Made by a program: the position numbers and the translations under genes
Part shown: one piece after another, positions 1 to 7,207 of the stretch
Layout of the letters: each line of letters starts with the position of its first letter
Numbering within the stretch: position 1 is the stretch's first letter
DNA from: Streptomyces sp. AM 4-1-1
Lineage (GTDB): Bacteria; Actinomycetota; Actinomycetes; Streptomycetales; Streptomycetaceae
Assembly: GCF_029167625.1 (NCBI RefSeq)
Contig: NZ_CP119145.1
Span: 6,696,001-6,760,000 of the forward strand
Length of the DNA: 64,000 nt
Direction of reading: 5' to 3'
Notes under the pieces: generated by a model
What the model was told of the DNA's origin: nothing
Seen by the model: only the letters and a program-made list of their open reading frames with translations
Databases searched by the model: none

Positions 1-237
1 CAGGACCGAGGTCTCAAGCTCAACTACAGCGAGTCGGTCGCGCTCATCACCGAGGCGATCCTCGAAGCCGCCCGTGACGGCAAAAGCGTCGCCGACTGCA
101 TGGAACTGGGCCGGCACGTCGTGGGCGAGAAGGACACCATGCCGGGGGTACGGGAAATGCTCGGCCTGCTCCAGGTCGAGGCGTCCTTCGCCGACGGCAC
201 GAAGCTCGTCTCCTGTCACGACCCCATCGGCGGCTGA
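1..237 (+). CDS. ureA: Urease gamma subunit, C-terminal part (5' end outside window)
   Basis: Frame 1 is open from the first base to a TGA at 235-237 and encodes 78 residues beginning [20 protein letters not shown], the conserved helical body of the urease gamma chain. The end matches UreA ([26 protein letters not shown] split over two helices, then HDPIGG). UreA packs against UreB and UreC in the nickel-dependent urea hydrolase. The family is about 100 residues, so roughly 22 N-terminal residues lie off the left edge. The next gene starts 5 bases downstream, so it is co-transcribed with the rest of the urease genes. Confidence 0.95.
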
Positions 238-242
238 GTCCA

Positions 243-1106
243 TTGGCCGACCACTGCCGGGTGATCGCGGCCTGCGGCCACGAGGCCGCGCACGGCGCCG
301 CGTTGCGTGATCTCGTGGGCCCCGAGGTGGCCGTCGTGTCGAGCGGGCGCGAACTGTTCCGGACCGTCGCCGGACTGCGACGCCGGGGCGAGGAGGGCTG
401 CGTCATTCCCATGACCCTGGGCCGTGACCCCGAACTGGTCGCGGACACCGCCCGCACACTGCGCGCCCTTCCCGCCGCCGACCGGTCCGGGGTCCTGCTC
501 ACCGAGCCCTTCGGCACCGCACAGCATCTGACCGGCTGGCTCAGGGCGGCCGCGGGACGGGTGTCCGACACCTCGGCGCTGCTGGTCACGGCCCCGGCCG
601 GCGATCCGTTCGAGGACGCCGAGCTGTACCGGATCGCCGCCCTCGTACGCCGGTACGGCCGACACGCCCTCGTCGAGGTGGCGTTCGGGGGAGGGGACCC
701 GGACCTCACCGAGGGCGTCCGCCGCTGCCGGCTGCTCGGCGCCTCCCGGGTGACGCTGCTGCCGGCCGCGTTCGTACGCCCCGACGCGCCGGAGGTGTCC
801 GGCATCCGGACCGAGGTGGCGGGCCCCATCGTGCCGCCCTCCGCGCTGACGCGTGTGCTGGCCGAACGGGCGGCCGACGCCCGGCGGCGGTGGCGCAGAC
901 ACGGTGACGACGGTGTCGGAGCCGGTCTCGCCGCGGCCGACCACCACGGGCACAACCACACCCACCCGCCGGGCGAGGGCCACGACCACGGGCACGGGCA
1001 CGGCTCCGGACACGGGCACAGCCACGCGCCCGGGGAGGACCACTCGCACCCGCAGCGGCGTTCGCCCGGCCGGGCCACGCCCCAAGTCATCAGGAGTACC
1101 GCATGA
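243..1106 (+). CDS. CbiX/sirohydrochlorin-chelatase-like protein with His-rich C-terminal tail
   Basis: A 287-residue product from a TTG start 5 bases after ureA. Residues 5-115 and about 120-225 read as two related alpha/beta halves of the CbiX/SirB/CfbA chelatase type; the second has the hallmark [16 protein letters not shown] followed by [12 protein letters not shown]. His13 and His17 lie in the N-terminal segment where this family keeps a metal-binding His. The tail, residues 234-269, holds 14 His in 36 positions, mostly HG, HD and HS pairs, and should bind nickel or cobalt. Known family members insert Co, Fe or Ni into sirohydrochlorin. No other tetrapyrrole gene is near; the gene sits between ureA and ureB and overlaps ureB by 4 bases. 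I infer nickel handling for urease, possibly replacing UreE, which is absent. A tetrapyrrole chelatase role is the alternative. Confidence 0.8.
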
Positions 1107-1624
1107 CGTTCCGTCAGAAGTACATCTACGGCAAGGAACCCATCGAGATCAACGCCGGTCGGCGCACCGTGCGGGTCACCGTCAGCAACACCGGTGACCG
1201 GGCGGTCCAGGTCGGGTCGCACTACCACTTCTTCGAGGTCAACTCCGCGCTGTCGTTCGACCGCCAGGAGACGCTGGGGATGCACCTCAACATCGCCGCG
1301 GGCACCTCGGTGCGCTTCGAGCCCGGCGGCTCGCGCGAGGTCGAACTGTGCACGTACGCGGGCACCGGCCGGCTCGTCGGCTTCAGCGGACTGCTCAACG
1401 GCAGCACCGCCTCCCAGCCCGCCCGGCTCGAAGCCGTCCGCAGGGCGATCGAACAGGGCTTCCAGGGCGCTCAGAACCTCGCCGCGGCCACCACCGACGC
1501 CCCGCACGGGAGCGGCGAGGGCGGCAAGAACGGCCGAGGGGCCGAGCGGAGCAAGGAGACCCCGGCCCACCGGAACGCCGGTGCGAACAAGGACACCAAG
1601 GAAAAGAAGAAGGGTTCGCGCTGA
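1103..1624 (+). CDS. ureB: Urease beta subunit with lysine-rich C-terminal extension
   Basis: 173 residues; the ATG overlaps the stop of the preceding gene (ATGA) and the TGA overlaps the ureC start (TGATG), so translation is coupled on both sides. The core has classic UreB motifs: a [23 protein letters not shown] segment (residues about 24-47), then [18 protein letters not shown] and the [11 protein letters not shown] strand. UreB is structural and helps shape the active-site flap of urease. The usual length is about 100-105 residues; here residues about 108-173 form a low-complexity tail rich in Gly, Lys, Asn, Arg and Glu ending KEKKKGSR. The tail is likely disordered and its role is unknown. 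Confidence 0.95.
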
Positions 1625-3348
1625 TGCCCATTCTGCCGCGCAAGCAGTACACCGACATGTTCGGCCCGACGGTCGGTGACCGCTTCCACCTCGGCGACAC
1701 CAACCTCGTCGTCGAGGTCGAGAAGGACTACAGCGAGGGCCTGTACGGCGACGAGGTCGTCTACGGCGGCGGCAAGACCATGCGGGACGGCATGGCGTCC
1801 GACCCGCAGGCCACCGCCGCCCAGGGCGCCCTCGACACCGTCATCACCAACGTCGTGGTCATCGACGCCATGCTGGGCGTCGTCAAGTGCGACATCGGGA
1901 TCAAGGACGGCTTCATCGTCGGCATCGGCAAGTCCGGGAACCCGCAGACCCAGAACAACGTCGACCCCGCCCTCGTCATCGGCCCCGGTACGGAGGCCAT
2001 CGCGGGCGAACACCTGATCGCCACCGCCGGGGCCATCGACACGCACGTCCACCTGATCGCCCCCCAGCAGGCCGAACAGGCGCTGACCAACGGCATCACC
2101 ACCCTCATCGGCGGCGGCACCGGGCCGACCGACGGCAGCAACGGGACCACCTGCACCCCTGGCCCGTACAACATCGCCAAACTGCTCCAGGCCGCCGAGG
2201 GCTTCCCGATCAACCTCGGCATCATGGGCAAGGGCAACGGCAGCCTGCCGGAGGCGCTGGAGGAACAGATCATCGCGGGCGCCTGCGCGCTGAAGGTGCA
2301 CGAGGACTGGGGTGCGACCCCCGCCGTCATCGACAACGCGCTCAACGTCGCCGACCACCACGACGTCCAGGTCGCCATCCACACCGACAGCCTGAACGAG
2401 AGCGGCTTCTTCGAGGACACCCGCTCCGCGATCGACGGCCGTGCCATCCACACCTTCCACAGCGAGGGCGCGGGCGGCGGTCACGCCCCGGACATCCTGC
2501 GGGTCGCGGGCGAGCCGAACGTCCTGCCCTCCTCGACCAACCCGACCCTCCCGTACACCAAGAACTCGGTCGACGAACTCCTCGACATGGTCATGGTCTG
2601 TCACCACCTCAGCCACGACATCCCCGAGGACGTCTCCTTCGCCGACAGCCGGGTCCGCGCCGAGACGATCGCCGCCGAGTCGGTCCTGCACGACCTCGGG
2701 GTGATCAGCATGTTCTCCTCCGACTCGCAGGCCATGGGCCGCGTCGGGGAGTCCGTCACCCGTGCCTTCCAGACCGCTCACCACTGCAAGGACAAGCGCG
2801 GCAAGCTGCCCGAGGACTCCGAGCGCAACGACAACCAGCGCGTGCTGCGCTACCTCGCCAAGGTCACCATCAACCCGGCCATCGCCACCGGCATCGCGGA
2901 ACACGTGGGGTCCATCGAGAAGGGCAAGCTCGCCGACATCGTGCTCTGGCCCATCCACTCCTTCGGCGCCAAGCCGAAACTGGTGATCAAGGGCGGCATC
3001 ATCTCCTGGGCACAGATGGGCGACCCCAACGCCTCACTGCCCACCACCCAGCCCATCATCTACCGCCCGATGTACGGGCAGTACGGCAAGGCCCTCCAGG
3101 CGACCCATGTCACCTTCATGTCGCAGGCCGGCATCGCCGCGGGCGTACCGGCCGAACTGGGCCTGGAACGCAAGATCCTGCCGGTCCGCCGCACCCGCAA
3201 CATCGGCAAGCACAACATGATCCGCAACAACGCGCTGCCGCACATCGAGGTCGACCCCGAGACGTTCAAGGTCACCCTCGACGGTGAGGTCGCCACCATC
3301 GCGCCGGCCGAGGAACTGCCCCTCAACCAGCTGTACTTCCTGGTCTAG
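1624..3348 (+). CDS. ureC: Urease alpha (catalytic) subunit
   Basis: 574 residues from the ATG that overlaps the ureB stop; an upstream extension of the open frame is ureB in another frame. All nickel-site residues are present: His141 and His143 (DTHVHL), the carbamylated Lys224 ([11 protein letters not shown]), His253 (VAIHTD), His279 ([12 protein letters not shown]) and Asp367 ([10 protein letters not shown]), with the catalytic flap His327 (VCHHL). Offsets are a constant +7 relative to the Klebsiella enzyme numbering. It hydrolyses urea to ammonia and carbamate in the cytoplasm and needs UreD/F/G for Ni loading. It should be fully active once metallated. Confidence 0.98.
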
Positions 3349-3353
3349 GGCCG

Positions 3354-4169
3354 ATGTACCGGAACGAACGCGCACCCTCCGGCGAACCGGCCTCCGACTC
3401 CCTCGTCACGACGGCCGAAGCGGCAACGACGGCCGAAGCGGCGGGGACGGCCGGAGGAGACGTGTCGGCCGGGACGGCCGGGACCGGACTGGGCGCCCTG
3501 CTGGTCAGCCTCCAGCTGACGGACTCGGCCTTCCCCAGCGGTTTCTACACGCTGTCGCACAGCCTGGAGGGCTTCGCCCACGCCAAGGCCGTCGACCCGG
3601 AGAGCCTTCCGGAGCTGCTGGCCGACCTGCTCCGTCATGGCGTCGGCCCGGCCGACGCCACGGCGCTCGCCCTCGCCCACCGGGCGACGACGGCGGGCGA
3701 CCCGGAGACCGCCGTCGCCGTGGACGAGCATCTGTTCGCCACCAAACTGGGCCGGGAGATGCGCCAGGCAGCCACCCGGACCGGCCGTCAGCTCCTCGAC
3801 CTCGCCCAGGAGGTCTTCGGCCGTCCGCAGATCACCGACTACTTCGGCCGGGTCGTACGACGCGAGGCGCCCGGCACCCAGGCGGTCGCGGCGGGGGTCA
3901 TCCACGCCGCGACCGGGGTGCCGGTCCGGCAGGCCGTCGCGGCCGACCTGTTCGCGTTCTGCGCCAGCTTCACCGGAGCCGCGTTGCGCCTGCGGCTGAC
4001 CGACCACCGCAGGGCTCAGGTCCTGCTGCGCGGCGCCGCGCCCGTCATCGAGGAGACCGTCGAACAGGCGCTGCGCCGCGATCTCGCCGACGTCGGCGCG
4101 ACGGTCTTCGCCTCGGACATCATGTCGGGCCGTCATGAACGCGCGGAGGCCCGGCTCTTCGCCAGTTGA
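3354..4169 (+). CDS. ureF: Urease accessory protein UreF with Ala/Thr-rich N-terminal extension
   Basis: 271 residues, starting 5 bases after ureC. The all-helical UreF domain begins near residue 45 (LGALLVSLQLTDSAFPSGFY, followed by SHSLEGF) and continues to the C-terminal HERAEARLFAS. UreF bridges UreD and UreG in the apourease activation complex and gates GTP hydrolysis by UreG. Residues 1-44 are a low-complexity Ala/Thr/Gly stretch with EAATTAEAA repeats, not needed by the family; a later in-frame GTG could be the real start, so the N-terminus is uncertain. A 39-base gap separates it from ureG. Confidence 0.93.
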   Translation: MYRNERAPSGEPASDSLVTTAEAATTAEAAGTAGGDVSAGTAGTGLGALLVSLQLTDSAFPSGFYTLSHSLEGFAHAKAVDPESLPELLADLLRHGVGPADATALALAHRATTAGDPETAVAVDEHLFATKLGREMRQAATRTGRQLLDLAQEVFGRPQITDYFGRVVRREAPGTQAVAAGVIHAATGVPVRQAVAADLFAFCASFTGAALRLRLTDHRRAQVLLRGAAPVIEETVEQALRRDLADVGATVFASDIMSGRHERAEARLFAS

Positions 4170-4208: not shown

Positions 4209-4829
4209 ATGGACGACAACGTATTGCGGGTCGGCGTCGGCGGCCCGGTGGGGTCGGGCAAGACCGCGCTCATCGAGGCACTGGTACCGGTGCTGATCGC
4301 GCGGGGCCACCGCCCGTCCGTCATCACGAACGACATCTACACACAGGAGGACGCCCAGCACATCCGCCGCACCCTCGACGGTGTCCTGGACCCCGCGCGG
4401 GTCGTCGGTGTGGAGACCGGCGCCTGCCCGCACACCGCCGTCCGTGACGACCCGACGATGAACCTCGCGGCCGGCGCGGAGATGCTGGAACGCTTCCCCG
4501 ACACCGACACGCTTCTGTACGAATCGGGGGGTGACAACCTCACCCTGACCTTCAGCCCGGTACTGGTGGACCTCTTCCTGTTCGTCCTGGACACCGCGGA
4601 GGGCGAGAAGATGCCCCGCAAACGCGGTCCCGGCATCACCGAATCCGATCTGCTGGTCATCAACAAGATCGACATCGCGAAGTACGTGCGGACCGACATC
4701 GGGGTGATGGAGGCGGACGCGCACCGGGTCAGGGAGGACCGGCCCGTCGTCCTGACCGACTGTCTGACCGGTATCGGCATCGACGACATCGCGGGGTACC
4801 TCGAGTCGCGGCGCAAGGTGCTGATCTGA
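4209..4829 (+). CDS. ureG: Urease accessory GTPase UreG
   Basis: 206 residues with a P-loop GPVGSGKT at residues 12-19, the Ni-binding CPH motif in ETGACPHTAVR (residues about 71-81), ESGGDNL and the guanine-specificity motif NKID. It is the SIMIBI-class GTPase that carries Ni2+ to urease within the UreD-UreF-UreG complex. A GGAG ribosome-binding site (AAGGAGCACC) lies just before the ATG. Unlike some UreG proteins it has no His-rich N-terminus, so metal storage in this operon rests with the His-tailed CbiX-like protein. ureD begins one base after its stop. Confidence 0.97.
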   Translation: MDDNVLRVGVGGPVGSGKTALIEALVPVLIARGHRPSVITNDIYTQEDAQHIRRTLDGVLDPARVVGVETGACPHTAVRDDPTMNLAAGAEMLERFPDTDTLLYESGGDNLTLTFSPVLVDLFLFVLDTAEGEKMPRKRGPGITESDLLVINKIDIAKYVRTDIGVMEADAHRVREDRPVVLTDCLTGIGIDDIAGYLESRRKVLI

Positions 4830-4830
4830 C

Positions 4831-5784
4831 GTGACGACCGCCCCGCCGCGCCGGCCGCGGGCCGACCGGCTCGCCGAGGGGTACTACGCCGCCGTCCGGA
4901 TTCCCCCCGAGGTGGCCGCCCTGGCGTCCGTCCCCGACACCCTCGTCCCGGGCTCCCCGGCCAAGGTCGGCATCCTCGACCTGGGCTTCACCGTGCGGGG
5001 CGGGCGCACCGAGCTCGTCGAGCGCTACCAGAAGACGCCGTTGCAGATCATGCGCCCGCTGTGGATCGACGACGCGCTGCCCGGCATGGCGTACGTCTAT
5101 CTGATGGCGACCGGCGGCGGTGTCGCGCAGGCCGACCGGTACCGGATGGACTTCCGCTGCGGACCCGGCACCCAGGTCCATCTGACCACCCAGGCGGCCA
5201 CCAAGGTGTTCCGGATGGAGCACGACTACGCCAGCCAGCGCGTGCACCTGGAGGCGGAGCCCGGCGCGTACGTGGAGTACCTGCCGGACCCGCTGATCCC
5301 GTTCCGCGACTCACGCTTCTACCAACGCACCGAGGTGACGGTGGCGCACGGCGCGACCGTCGTCGTGGGGGACACCCTGACGGCCGGGCGACTCGCCCGC
5401 GGGGAGCGTCACGCCTACCGGGTCCTCGCCACCGACCTGCGGATCACCCGGCCGGACGGCACCCTCCTCGCCATCGACACCCTGCGTCTCGCGTCCGGCG
5501 GGGGAGTGCTCGGGCCGGGCGTCTTCGCCGGGCACGACCATGTCGCCTCGCTCTTCGTCGTCACCGACGACGCCCCCGCCGCCGAGATCGCCGACACGCT
5601 GCACCGCGCGCTCGACGGTCAGGGAGTGCTGTACGGGGTCAGCGTGCTGCCCCGGGACTGCGGCGCCTGGCTGCGGCTCCTCGACGACAGCCCCGTCCGC
5701 ACCGCCGCCGCGACGAAGGCCGCCTGGCACGCGGTACGCACCCTGCTCACCGGCAGCCCGCCGCCCGATCTGCGCAAGCCCTGA
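4831..5784 (+). CDS. ureD: Urease accessory protein UreD (UreH)
   Basis: 317 residues from a GTG one base past ureG. Typical UreD segments are visible: KTPLQIMRPLWID, LTTQAATKVFRMEHDYASQ (the QAATK motif) and EYLPDPLIPFRDSRFYQRT. UreD is the scaffold that docks UreF and UreG onto apourease and contains a channel through which Ni reaches the active site. It is the last urease gene; the ammonium channel starts 76 bases downstream in the same direction, so a single transcript could run from ureA to amt. Confidence 0.95.
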   Translation: MTTAPPRRPRADRLAEGYYAAVRIPPEVAALASVPDTLVPGSPAKVGILDLGFTVRGGRTELVERYQKTPLQIMRPLWIDDALPGMAYVYLMATGGGVAQADRYRMDFRCGPGTQVHLTTQAATKVFRMEHDYASQRVHLEAEPGAYVEYLPDPLIPFRDSRFYQRTEVTVAHGATVVVGDTLTAGRLARGERHAYRVLATDLRITRPDGTLLAIDTLRLASGGGVLGPGVFAGHDHVASLFVVTDDAPAAEIADTLHRALDGQGVLYGVSVLPRDCGAWLRLLDDSPVRTAAATKAAWHAVRTLLTGSPPPDLRKP

Positions 5785-5860: not shown

Positions 5861-7207
5861 ATGAACACCGCTCCCGCGCCGATGCCACCCGCGTACGACT
5901 CAGGGGACACCGCCTGGCTGCTGGCCTCCACCGCCATGGTGCTGCTGATGACCCCAGGACTGGCGTTCTTCTACGGCGGTATGGTCCGCACCCGGCACGT
6001 CCTGATGATGATCAAGATGAGCTTCGCCGCGCTCGCCTTCGGCAGCCTGGTCTGGTGGGCGATCGGCTACACGCTCGCCTTCGGCCCCGATGTGGGCGGC
6101 GCCGGACTCATCGGCAACCTCGACCACGCGTTCATGCGCGACATCGGCCTCACCACGCTGTCGGGCGCCATTCCCACGTACGTCTACAGCACGTTCCAGA
6201 TGGGCTTCGCCGTCATCACCGTCGCCCTGATCAGCGGCTCCATCGCCGACCGCGCCACGATGAGGGGCTGGCTGGTCTTCGTCGTCCTGTGGCTGCTCAT
6301 CGTCTACATCCCGATCGCGCACTGGGTGTTCGACCGGGACGGCTGGATCGTGCGCCATCTCGGCGCCCTCGACTTCGCCGGCGGGCTCCCGGTGGAGCTC
6401 AACTCGGGAATCGCCGGTCTGGCGGCGGCCATCGTGCTGCGGGCGCCCCGCGACTTCGCCCGGCGTGCGGAGCGGCCCAACAACATCCCGCTGGTGGTGA
6501 TCGGGGTGGCGCTGCTCTGGTTCGGCTGGTTCGGCTTCAACTCCGGTTCGGCGCTGACCGATCAGGGTACCGCCGCCGCGGCGTTCATCAACACCCAGCT
6601 CGGCGCCGTGGGCGCCATGGTCACCTGGCCGCTGGTGGAGAAGTGGCGCACCGGCCGGGTCACCACGACGGGAGTCGTCTCGTCGGCGGTGGCGGGCATG
6701 GTCGCCATCACCCCGGCCTGCGGTGAGATCGACACCACCGGGGCCGTCGTCACCGGGCTGGTCGTGGGACTCGTCTGCGCCTTCGCCATCACGCTGAAGT
6801 ACCGCGTCGGCGTCGACGACACCCTCGACGTCGTCGGCGTGCACGGGGTCGGAGGTCTCATCGGTCTGATCATGGTCGGACTGTTCGCCACCGCCCGGAT
6901 CAGCGGCAAGGAAGGGCTGTTCTACGGCGGTGGCTGGGGGCTGCTGGGCAAGCAGCTCGTCGCGGTTGTCTCCGTGGCCGCCTTCTCCTTCGTCCTCACC
7001 TGGCTCATCGCGAAGGCCGTGGACCTGACGGTCGGCTTCCGTGCCGGGGCGGAGTACGAGAAGGTGCCGGGCGACGAGGAGGAGCGCGCGTACGACTTCG
7101 AGACCGCCGAGCGCCTGGGCGCCCTGGTCCCGGGGAAGTCCGTCGCCGACGACGAACTCGTCGAGCAGATCCGACGGCTCCTCAGAGCCCGTCAGGACGC
7201 CGGATAG
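5861..7207 (+). CDS. amt: Amt/Mep/Rh-family ammonium channel with Glu in place of the first pore His
   Basis: 448 residues, start chosen at the ATG after CACGAGG; an N-terminal run of TM helices begins at SGDTAWLLASTAMVLLM. Eleven hydrophobic segments and the family signatures are present: STFQMGFAVIT (Phe gate), GALDFAGG with the conserved Asp, LLWFGWFGFNSGSA, and DDTLDVVGVHGVGG with pore His328. The first twin-His position is Glu179 (PVELNSGIAG instead of the usual VVHINAG). Yeast Mep1/Mep3 have the same His-to-Glu swap and remain transporters. No glnK/glnD follows. The cytoplasmic tail is long and charged. It probably retrieves or equilibrates ammonium released by the upstream urease. Confidence 0.95.
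   Translation: MNTAPAPMPPAYDSGDTAWLLASTAMVLLMTPGLAFFYGGMVRTRHVLMMIKMSFAALAFGSLVWWAIGYTLAFGPDVGGAGLIGNLDHAFMRDIGLTTLSGAIPTYVYSTFQMGFAVITVALISGSIADRATMRGWLVFVVLWLLIVYIPIAHWVFDRDGWIVRHLGALDFAGGLPVELNSGIAGLAAAIVLRAPRDFARRAERPNNIPLVVIGVALLWFGWFGFNSGSALTDQGTAAAAFINTQLGAVGAMVTWPLVEKWRTGRVTTTGVVSSAVAGMVAITPACGEIDTTGAVVTGLVVGLVCAFAITLKYRVGVDDTLDVVGVHGVGGLIGLIMVGLFATARISGKEGLFYGGGWGLLGKQLVAVVSVAAFSFVLTWLIAKAVDLTVGFRAGAEYEKVPGDEEERAYDFETAERLGALVPGKSVADDELVEQIRRLLRARQDAG

Follow-up and report, generated by a model that had tools for sequence, protein, structure and literature searches.

Why should a gene for a chelatase-like protein lie between the genes for two urease subunits, and what would its product do there? 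The question is raised by a window of 64,000 nucleotides (the whole stretch of DNA analysed) from Streptomyces sp. AM 4-1-1, namely positions 6,696,001 to 6,760,000 of contig NZ_CP119145.1. The original prediction was that a CbiX/SirB-type protein in a urease operon lacking ureE stores or delivers nickel to UreG as a substitute for UreE, or links tetrapyrrole metallation to urease. The features of the operon and of the chelatase-like gene are listed here.

1..237, + strand, 3' part of ureA (urease gamma); the gene starts upstream of the window
243..1106, + strand, urease-linked chelatase-like protein of 287 aa with a TTG start (open reading frame, predicted fold and profile match)
276..284, + strand, G12-H13-E14 motif of the chelatase-like protein; H13 lies outside the profile alignment and is assigned as the first catalytic His from the position of the motif
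411..449, + strand, residues 57-69, corresponding to the SirB/CbiX loop with the second catalytic His, which is lost here (alignment)
525..527, + strand, H95
942..1049, + strand, His-rich tail, with a His content far from chance
1103..1624, + strand, ureB (urease beta; Pfam E 9e-40), overlapping the chelatase-like gene by 4 bases (ATGA)
1588..3348, + strand, ureC (urease alpha)
3354..4169, + strand, ureF
4209..4829, + strand, ureG without a His extension (TIGR00101, E 1.5e-73)
4831..5784, + strand, ureD
5870..7207, + strand, AmtB-type ammonium transporter (Pfam E 2e-109)

The complete ureA gene is at L012:12933-13238 (Urease_gamma, E 3e-41), and five bases separate its stop codon from the TTG start of the chelatase-like gene. 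As had been claimed, a two-lobed class II chelatase-like protein is encoded directly between ureA and ureB, overlapping ureB; its tail contains 14 His in the 36 residues 234-269, and the UreG of the operon, as read from the sequence, has no His-rich extension. UreE was undetected anywhere in the genome, not just in the operon. The operon is flanked by a gene for a UT urea transporter upstream of ureA (L012:11868-12875) and by the AmtB-type transporter gene downstream, and both are in the same places in 16 of the 38 named loci described below. A second urease cluster is found about 466 kb away in the same genome (L011, C1 6226000-6238000). Its UreC belongs to another lineage and its UreG ends in HGHSHT; two urease types coexist in one genome.

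According to the available portions of PMC11301274 and PMC7689651, class II chelatase catalysis needs two His in one lobe, His10 and His76 of SirB, together with Glu43. The predicted fold of the window protein has the two lobes of a class II chelatase. Residues were counted in 241 sequences, made up of the window protein and 240 relatives (the best 120 from each of two protein searches). From the catalytic His pair of CbiX/SirB only the first was found: H13 is present in 232/241 sequences (R in 6, A in 1 and a gap in 2) and E14 in 239/241. There is no His anywhere in residues 57-69 in any of the 241 sequences, and residue 64, the counterpart in the alignment of the second His in the CbiX encoded elsewhere in the same genome, is variable (E, T, V, G and others). 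Position 32, at which the SirB Glu43 ligand can be placed by extending the profile alignment three residues, is occupied by V, T, A, S or C (with one gap), none of the kinds counted being acidic. A CxxC after residue 200 is likewise absent from 241/241; the own-genome CbiX has a CxxC ahead of its His tail. Elsewhere the core is highly conserved, H95 being present in 240/241 sequences and R61, R101 and R209 each in all 241.

The window protein scores 20.2 bits against Pfam CbiX, below the curated cut-off of 22; the relative in L052 scores 16.6 bits and that in L049 24.8 bits, a weak pass. No UreE family was found in the window protein up to E 1 (hmmscan). NCBIfam gave no meaningful family, with one low-complexity match (E 0.21), and a search of solved structures with the window protein sequence gave chance matches only (E 0.047 and 0.85). 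Canonical CbiX/SirB genes scoring above the Pfam cut-off were found elsewhere in the genome in 5/5 carriers examined.

The His-rich tail is widely retained. At least 8 His are found within some 36-residue stretch in 238/240 relatives, and the proximal part is conserved as H235-G-x-x-H239-x-H241, with wide variation in tail length. The tail is poor in His in P0200 and short in P0081. In L221 (G555, a genome of the genus), the tail is out of frame after HTHPPG, which may reflect either true loss of the tail or a sequencing error within a repeat. The own-genome CbiX (L013:5347-6408; L001, C1 at about 1.2205 Mb) also ends in a CxxC and a His-rich tail (HFHPDDDGHHHHPHHGEHAHTH); its gene adjoins cobalamin-type genes, the neighbours being judged by eye. 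A CxxC and a His-rich C-terminal end were also seen in several other CbiX relatives fetched.

Carriers of the gene were sought in a contig scan of one genome per species (84,980 species). The scan used only two short peptide patterns and hence does not list every carrier. At least 38 named loci were found, in Streptomyces, Kitasatospora, Streptacidiphilus, Speluncibacter and Cellulomonas, and the closest named relatives of the window protein are from Streptomyces. The order ureA, chelatase-like gene, ureB was found in 35 of the 38, and the contigs of the other three end inside the chelatase-like gene. In a later set, the gene is beside ureA in 25/25 regions (L210 and L212 without ureC to ureD, and L226 cut by a contig end). 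The neighbourhood survey suggested with the original prediction, for CbiX homologues between ureA and ureB, therefore gave a clean result, and the gene has the conserved place in a urease operon that marks a urease accessory protein. L210 and L212 (G786 and G720, family f26) retain ureA and the chelatase-like gene, with ureC to ureD absent from the next 8 kb, and are apparently decaying urease operons. Further relatives, in Georgenia, Mumia, Nocardioides, Sanguibacter, Arthrobacter, Leifsonia, Agromyces, Mycetocola and others (under the names used by the sources), came from a protein search with the Cellulomonas member and are known from protein sequence rather than neighbourhood.

Within the class, the gene was found in 5 of 394 genomes (E < 1e-60), and the urease linkage holds for all five of these strong matches. 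It was found in 21/246 genomes of the genus and in 9/245 genomes of family f26. Of the 73 genomes in the class sample with E up to 1e-3, 68 have nothing stronger than 1e-13 and were not counted as carriers. Among 25 weak-match loci inspected, 14 have a plausible frame bearing the HG[ST] motif of CbiX/SirB. The chelatase-like frames in L061, L064 and L080 (family f17) have GQGS replacing the first catalytic motif and seem to be another, separate instance of site loss in a chelatase. Spacing to ureB was measurable in 58 cases, with the 4-base overlap in 24 and a gap in 30. In Streptacidiphilus sp. 4-A2 (L049:7965-9170), the chelatase-like frame continues into ureB, in frame and without a stop, and could, from the reading frame, encode a fusion protein.

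UreE is uncommon in this class. The model PF05194 exceeds its cut-off in 4/394 genomes, compared with urease in 168/394, and the count is a lower bound because real UreE proteins were missed by this model, one in L126 (G281) that was found by BLAST and those in L195 and L197 that were found by UreE_N. A missing ureE therefore says little, and anticorrelation with ureE, the check that accompanied the original prediction, was rejected as the main test. The informative complement proved to be the His stretch on UreG. In the available portions of a 2009 comparative study (PMC2770081), organisms without UreE are described as carrying a His stretch on UreG, with a table that includes S. coelicolor, S. 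avermitilis, plants, fungi and mycobacteria; Bradyrhizobium and Frankia are given as exceptions, and HypB is proposed for both. The His in UreG were therefore counted across urease clusters.

The count covered the UreG start extension and the last 30 residues, with 3 or more His classed as His-rich. The UreG start was taken as the nearest ATG upstream of the P-loop or, failing that, the nearest GTG and then TTG. A total of 137 clusters were scored, 40 with the chelatase-like gene (linked) and 97 without it (unlinked). For the 97, 111 regions were hand-picked among the matches listed; 4 of these were linked and 11 had no UreG that could be scored, and the second cluster of the window's genome was added to the remainder. 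Most weaker urease matches (e.g. families f24, f34 and f39) lie outside this sample.

In the linked clusters, the UreG His count is 0 in 34/40 and 1 in 6/40, and no UreE was found by BLAST. Without the chelatase-like gene, 85/97 clusters have 3 or more His in UreG by the start rule (exactly 3 in 17). The remaining 12 comprise five with UreE by clear BLAST matches, two with UreE_N over the cut-off, L162 and four with neither. L162 was reassigned to the His-rich group by eye, as HGHEHSHGHGHGHTHT lies directly before the chosen UreG start, raising the number to 86/97. Sorted by carrier of the His-rich module, the 137 clusters thus include 86 with a His-rich UreG, seven with UreE, 40 with the chelatase-like protein and four with none; exactly one of the three carriers is present in 133/137 and two carriers in none. 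Apart from the five clear matches, BLAST with three UreE queries found UreE in no other cluster among the 137, and with so few queries a very divergent UreE could be missed. The UreG proteins of linked clusters are 206-221 aa long (median 206), compared with a median of 228 aa in unlinked clusters. However, a His-less UreG alone proves nothing, as UreG also has only 0-2 His in the seven UreE-bearing clusters.

The later 25 regions included four repeats and three without UreG in the stretch, and gave 18 new scorable UreGs, with 0 His in 17 and 1 His in one; no UreE was found by BLAST in this set. An exact match over 200 UreC residues was the criterion for discarding repeats, and near copies may therefore remain. 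The four clusters with no UreE, His-rich UreG or chelatase-like gene (L170, L173, L190 and L192) all belong to family f18. Their ureG is 3.0-4.2 kb from ureC, HypB was found in two of the four genomes, and they indicate that a His module is not strictly needed in cis.

Of 31 known carrier genomes, 26 were checked for other donors, the excluded genomes being G786 and G720 (operon remnants) and G502, G516 and G532 (gene near a contig end). UreE_C was found in none of the 26. HypB, considered as a general nickel donor, exceeded its cut-off in 5/26 and was rejected for most carriers. The HypB model also picks up UreG, and the single match in G311, G661, G705 and G783 is the His-less UreG of the operon. 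In these four genomes, the chelatase-like protein is therefore the sole His-rich urease partner seen.

A UreC tree was built for 135 of the 137 clusters, two being omitted for lack of an anchor motif, with a midpoint root only. All 40 linked clusters fall on one side of a single branch (SH-aLRT 100), and the order of branching between this group, a UreE-bearing group and the clusters with a His-rich UreG is not resolved. Because the linked ureases form a single group, the swap of the His module counts as one event. The association, as read from the sequences, is a single event kept over a long time and the 40 clusters are not independent; a Mann-Whitney test on the UreG His counts (2e-17) cannot be taken as 40 independent cases. 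The chelatase-like gene is a marker of one group of ureases, and within that group both UreE and a His-rich UreG went undetected.

Taken together, the sequence evidence points to a nickel-binding accessory protein that serves urease specifically and whose scaffold is a class II chelatase (CbiX/SirB) fold retired from catalysis, and we consider this reading probable. The protein is probably a nickel helper because it bears the His-rich, probably nickel-holding tail that is kept elsewhere on UreE or UreG, and it appears to be a third protein that carries the His-rich module, beside these two. On the fuller proposal, that the retired fold became a urease-specific nickel metallochaperone in which the residual GHE motif and H95 form a site for transfer from the tail to UreG, our opinion is evenly balanced. 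The observations beneath this mechanism are the place in the operon, the predicted fold, the loss of the second catalytic His, the retention of the tail, the His-less UreG and the undetected UreE.

In known urease maturation, as set out in the available portions of PMC10100864, nickel passes from UreE to UreG, then through UreF/UreD to urease. In the proposed variant, binding and delivery would both fall, we infer, to the chelatase-like protein. The His-rich tail would gather Ni(II), the folded part would dock on the urease maturation complex, and the core, perhaps via H13/E14 and H95, would position the metal. The His-less UreG would then accept nickel, which would reach the active site of urease via UreF/UreD, so that the net role would be the work done in other ureases by UreE or by the UreG His stretch. 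The nickel-delivery part of the original prediction thus survives in the form of an accessory protein dedicated to urease, with the holding or delivery of nickel as its most likely function, while the argument that the operon lacks ureE is unspecific. Substitution for UreE is right in spirit and is better put as a protein bearing the His module found elsewhere on UreG.

Other explanations have to be weighed against this one. The tail could simply sequester nickel, for protection or as a reserve, with no hand-over to UreG. The wide variation in tail length would suit such a passive store or buffer, as would the His-rich tail of B. megaterium CbiX-L, which in the available portions of PMC7689651 is proposed to serve metal storage or delivery and is dispensable for cobalt insertion. 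However, the constant position between ureA and ureB and the conserved folded core, with its three invariant Arg, suggest a partner in the urease pathway rather than a free buffer, and we regard storage alone as unlikely. A part in assembly or structure of the UreA and UreB subunits, with the His tail secondary, is suggested by the location between the two small-subunit genes, by the overlap with ureB seen in 24 of the 58 spacings measured (against 30 with a gap) and by the read-through in L049. This role would account neither for the tail retained in all but two of the 240 relatives nor for the co-occurrence of the gene with absence of the UreG His stretch, and we judge it very unlikely.

Catalytic activity as a metal-tetrapyrrole chelatase, for instance one for nickel or cobalt that is expressed together with urease, is slightly less probable again. 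The second catalytic loop is without His throughout the family, position 32 in the extended alignment offers no acidic counterpart of SirB Glu43 among the kinds counted, and the carriers checked have canonical CbiX/SirB genes. The loss of the second His and the presence of these canonical genes make a tetrapyrrole chelatase role unlikely, and leave the suggested link between tetrapyrrole metallation and urease unsupported. The least probable explanation in our view is coincidence of lineage, whereby a His-less UreG was ancestral in the linked group and the chelatase-like gene is an unrelated passenger. The single group on the tree and the similarly His-poor UreGs that accompany UreE fit this explanation, but the gene and its tail stay in place down to about 40% identity and across several families.

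The favoured reading, a nickel-binding urease accessory protein, can be set against the known systems. With CbiX-L, SirB and CfbA the protein shares the two-lobed fold, the first active-site His and a similar second-lobe stretch (DPxxxxE), and with CbiX-L also the His-rich C-terminal tail. It differs from them in the loss of the second catalytic His and the Glu ligand, in having no CxxC in the C-terminal region, and in a gene located in a urease cluster rather than in B12 or siroheme clusters. Like UreE, it belongs to a urease operon, has a His-rich C-terminal tail and occurs where UreG has no His stretch of its own, but the fold is different, no UreE domain was found and the position is between ureA and ureB. 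HypB and SlyD have folds that differ from the chelatase-like fold. They resemble the protein as His-rich nickel proteins serving a G3E GTPase pathway (in part from the available portions of PMC2770081), although HypB is over the cut-off in so few carriers. The UreGs with a His stretch, as described in the same portions, also provide a His-rich stretch for a UreE-less urease; there it is fused to the GTPase, whereas here it is on a separate protein beside a short UreG.

In a literature search for which subscription journals were mostly out of scope, no title or abstract opening joined a CbiX-type protein to urease maturation, and the passages on CbiX in the available portions of PMC2667541, PMC4531530, PMC7689651 and PMC4192464 make no such link. 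What appears to be new, going by the sequences, is an unexpected scaffold for a known kind of function, namely that of a His-rich protein donating nickel to urease. Many members of the family are named 'cobalamin biosynthesis protein CbiX' or 'sirohydrochlorin chelatase' in the sources; these names are probably incorrect and would introduce errors into models of how B12 and siroheme are made. For one actinobacterial urease group, the chelatase-like gene offers a concrete, testable answer to the UreG His-stretch rule, as stated in the available portions of PMC2770081, and the family illustrates how a metal-inserting enzyme may become a metal carrier.
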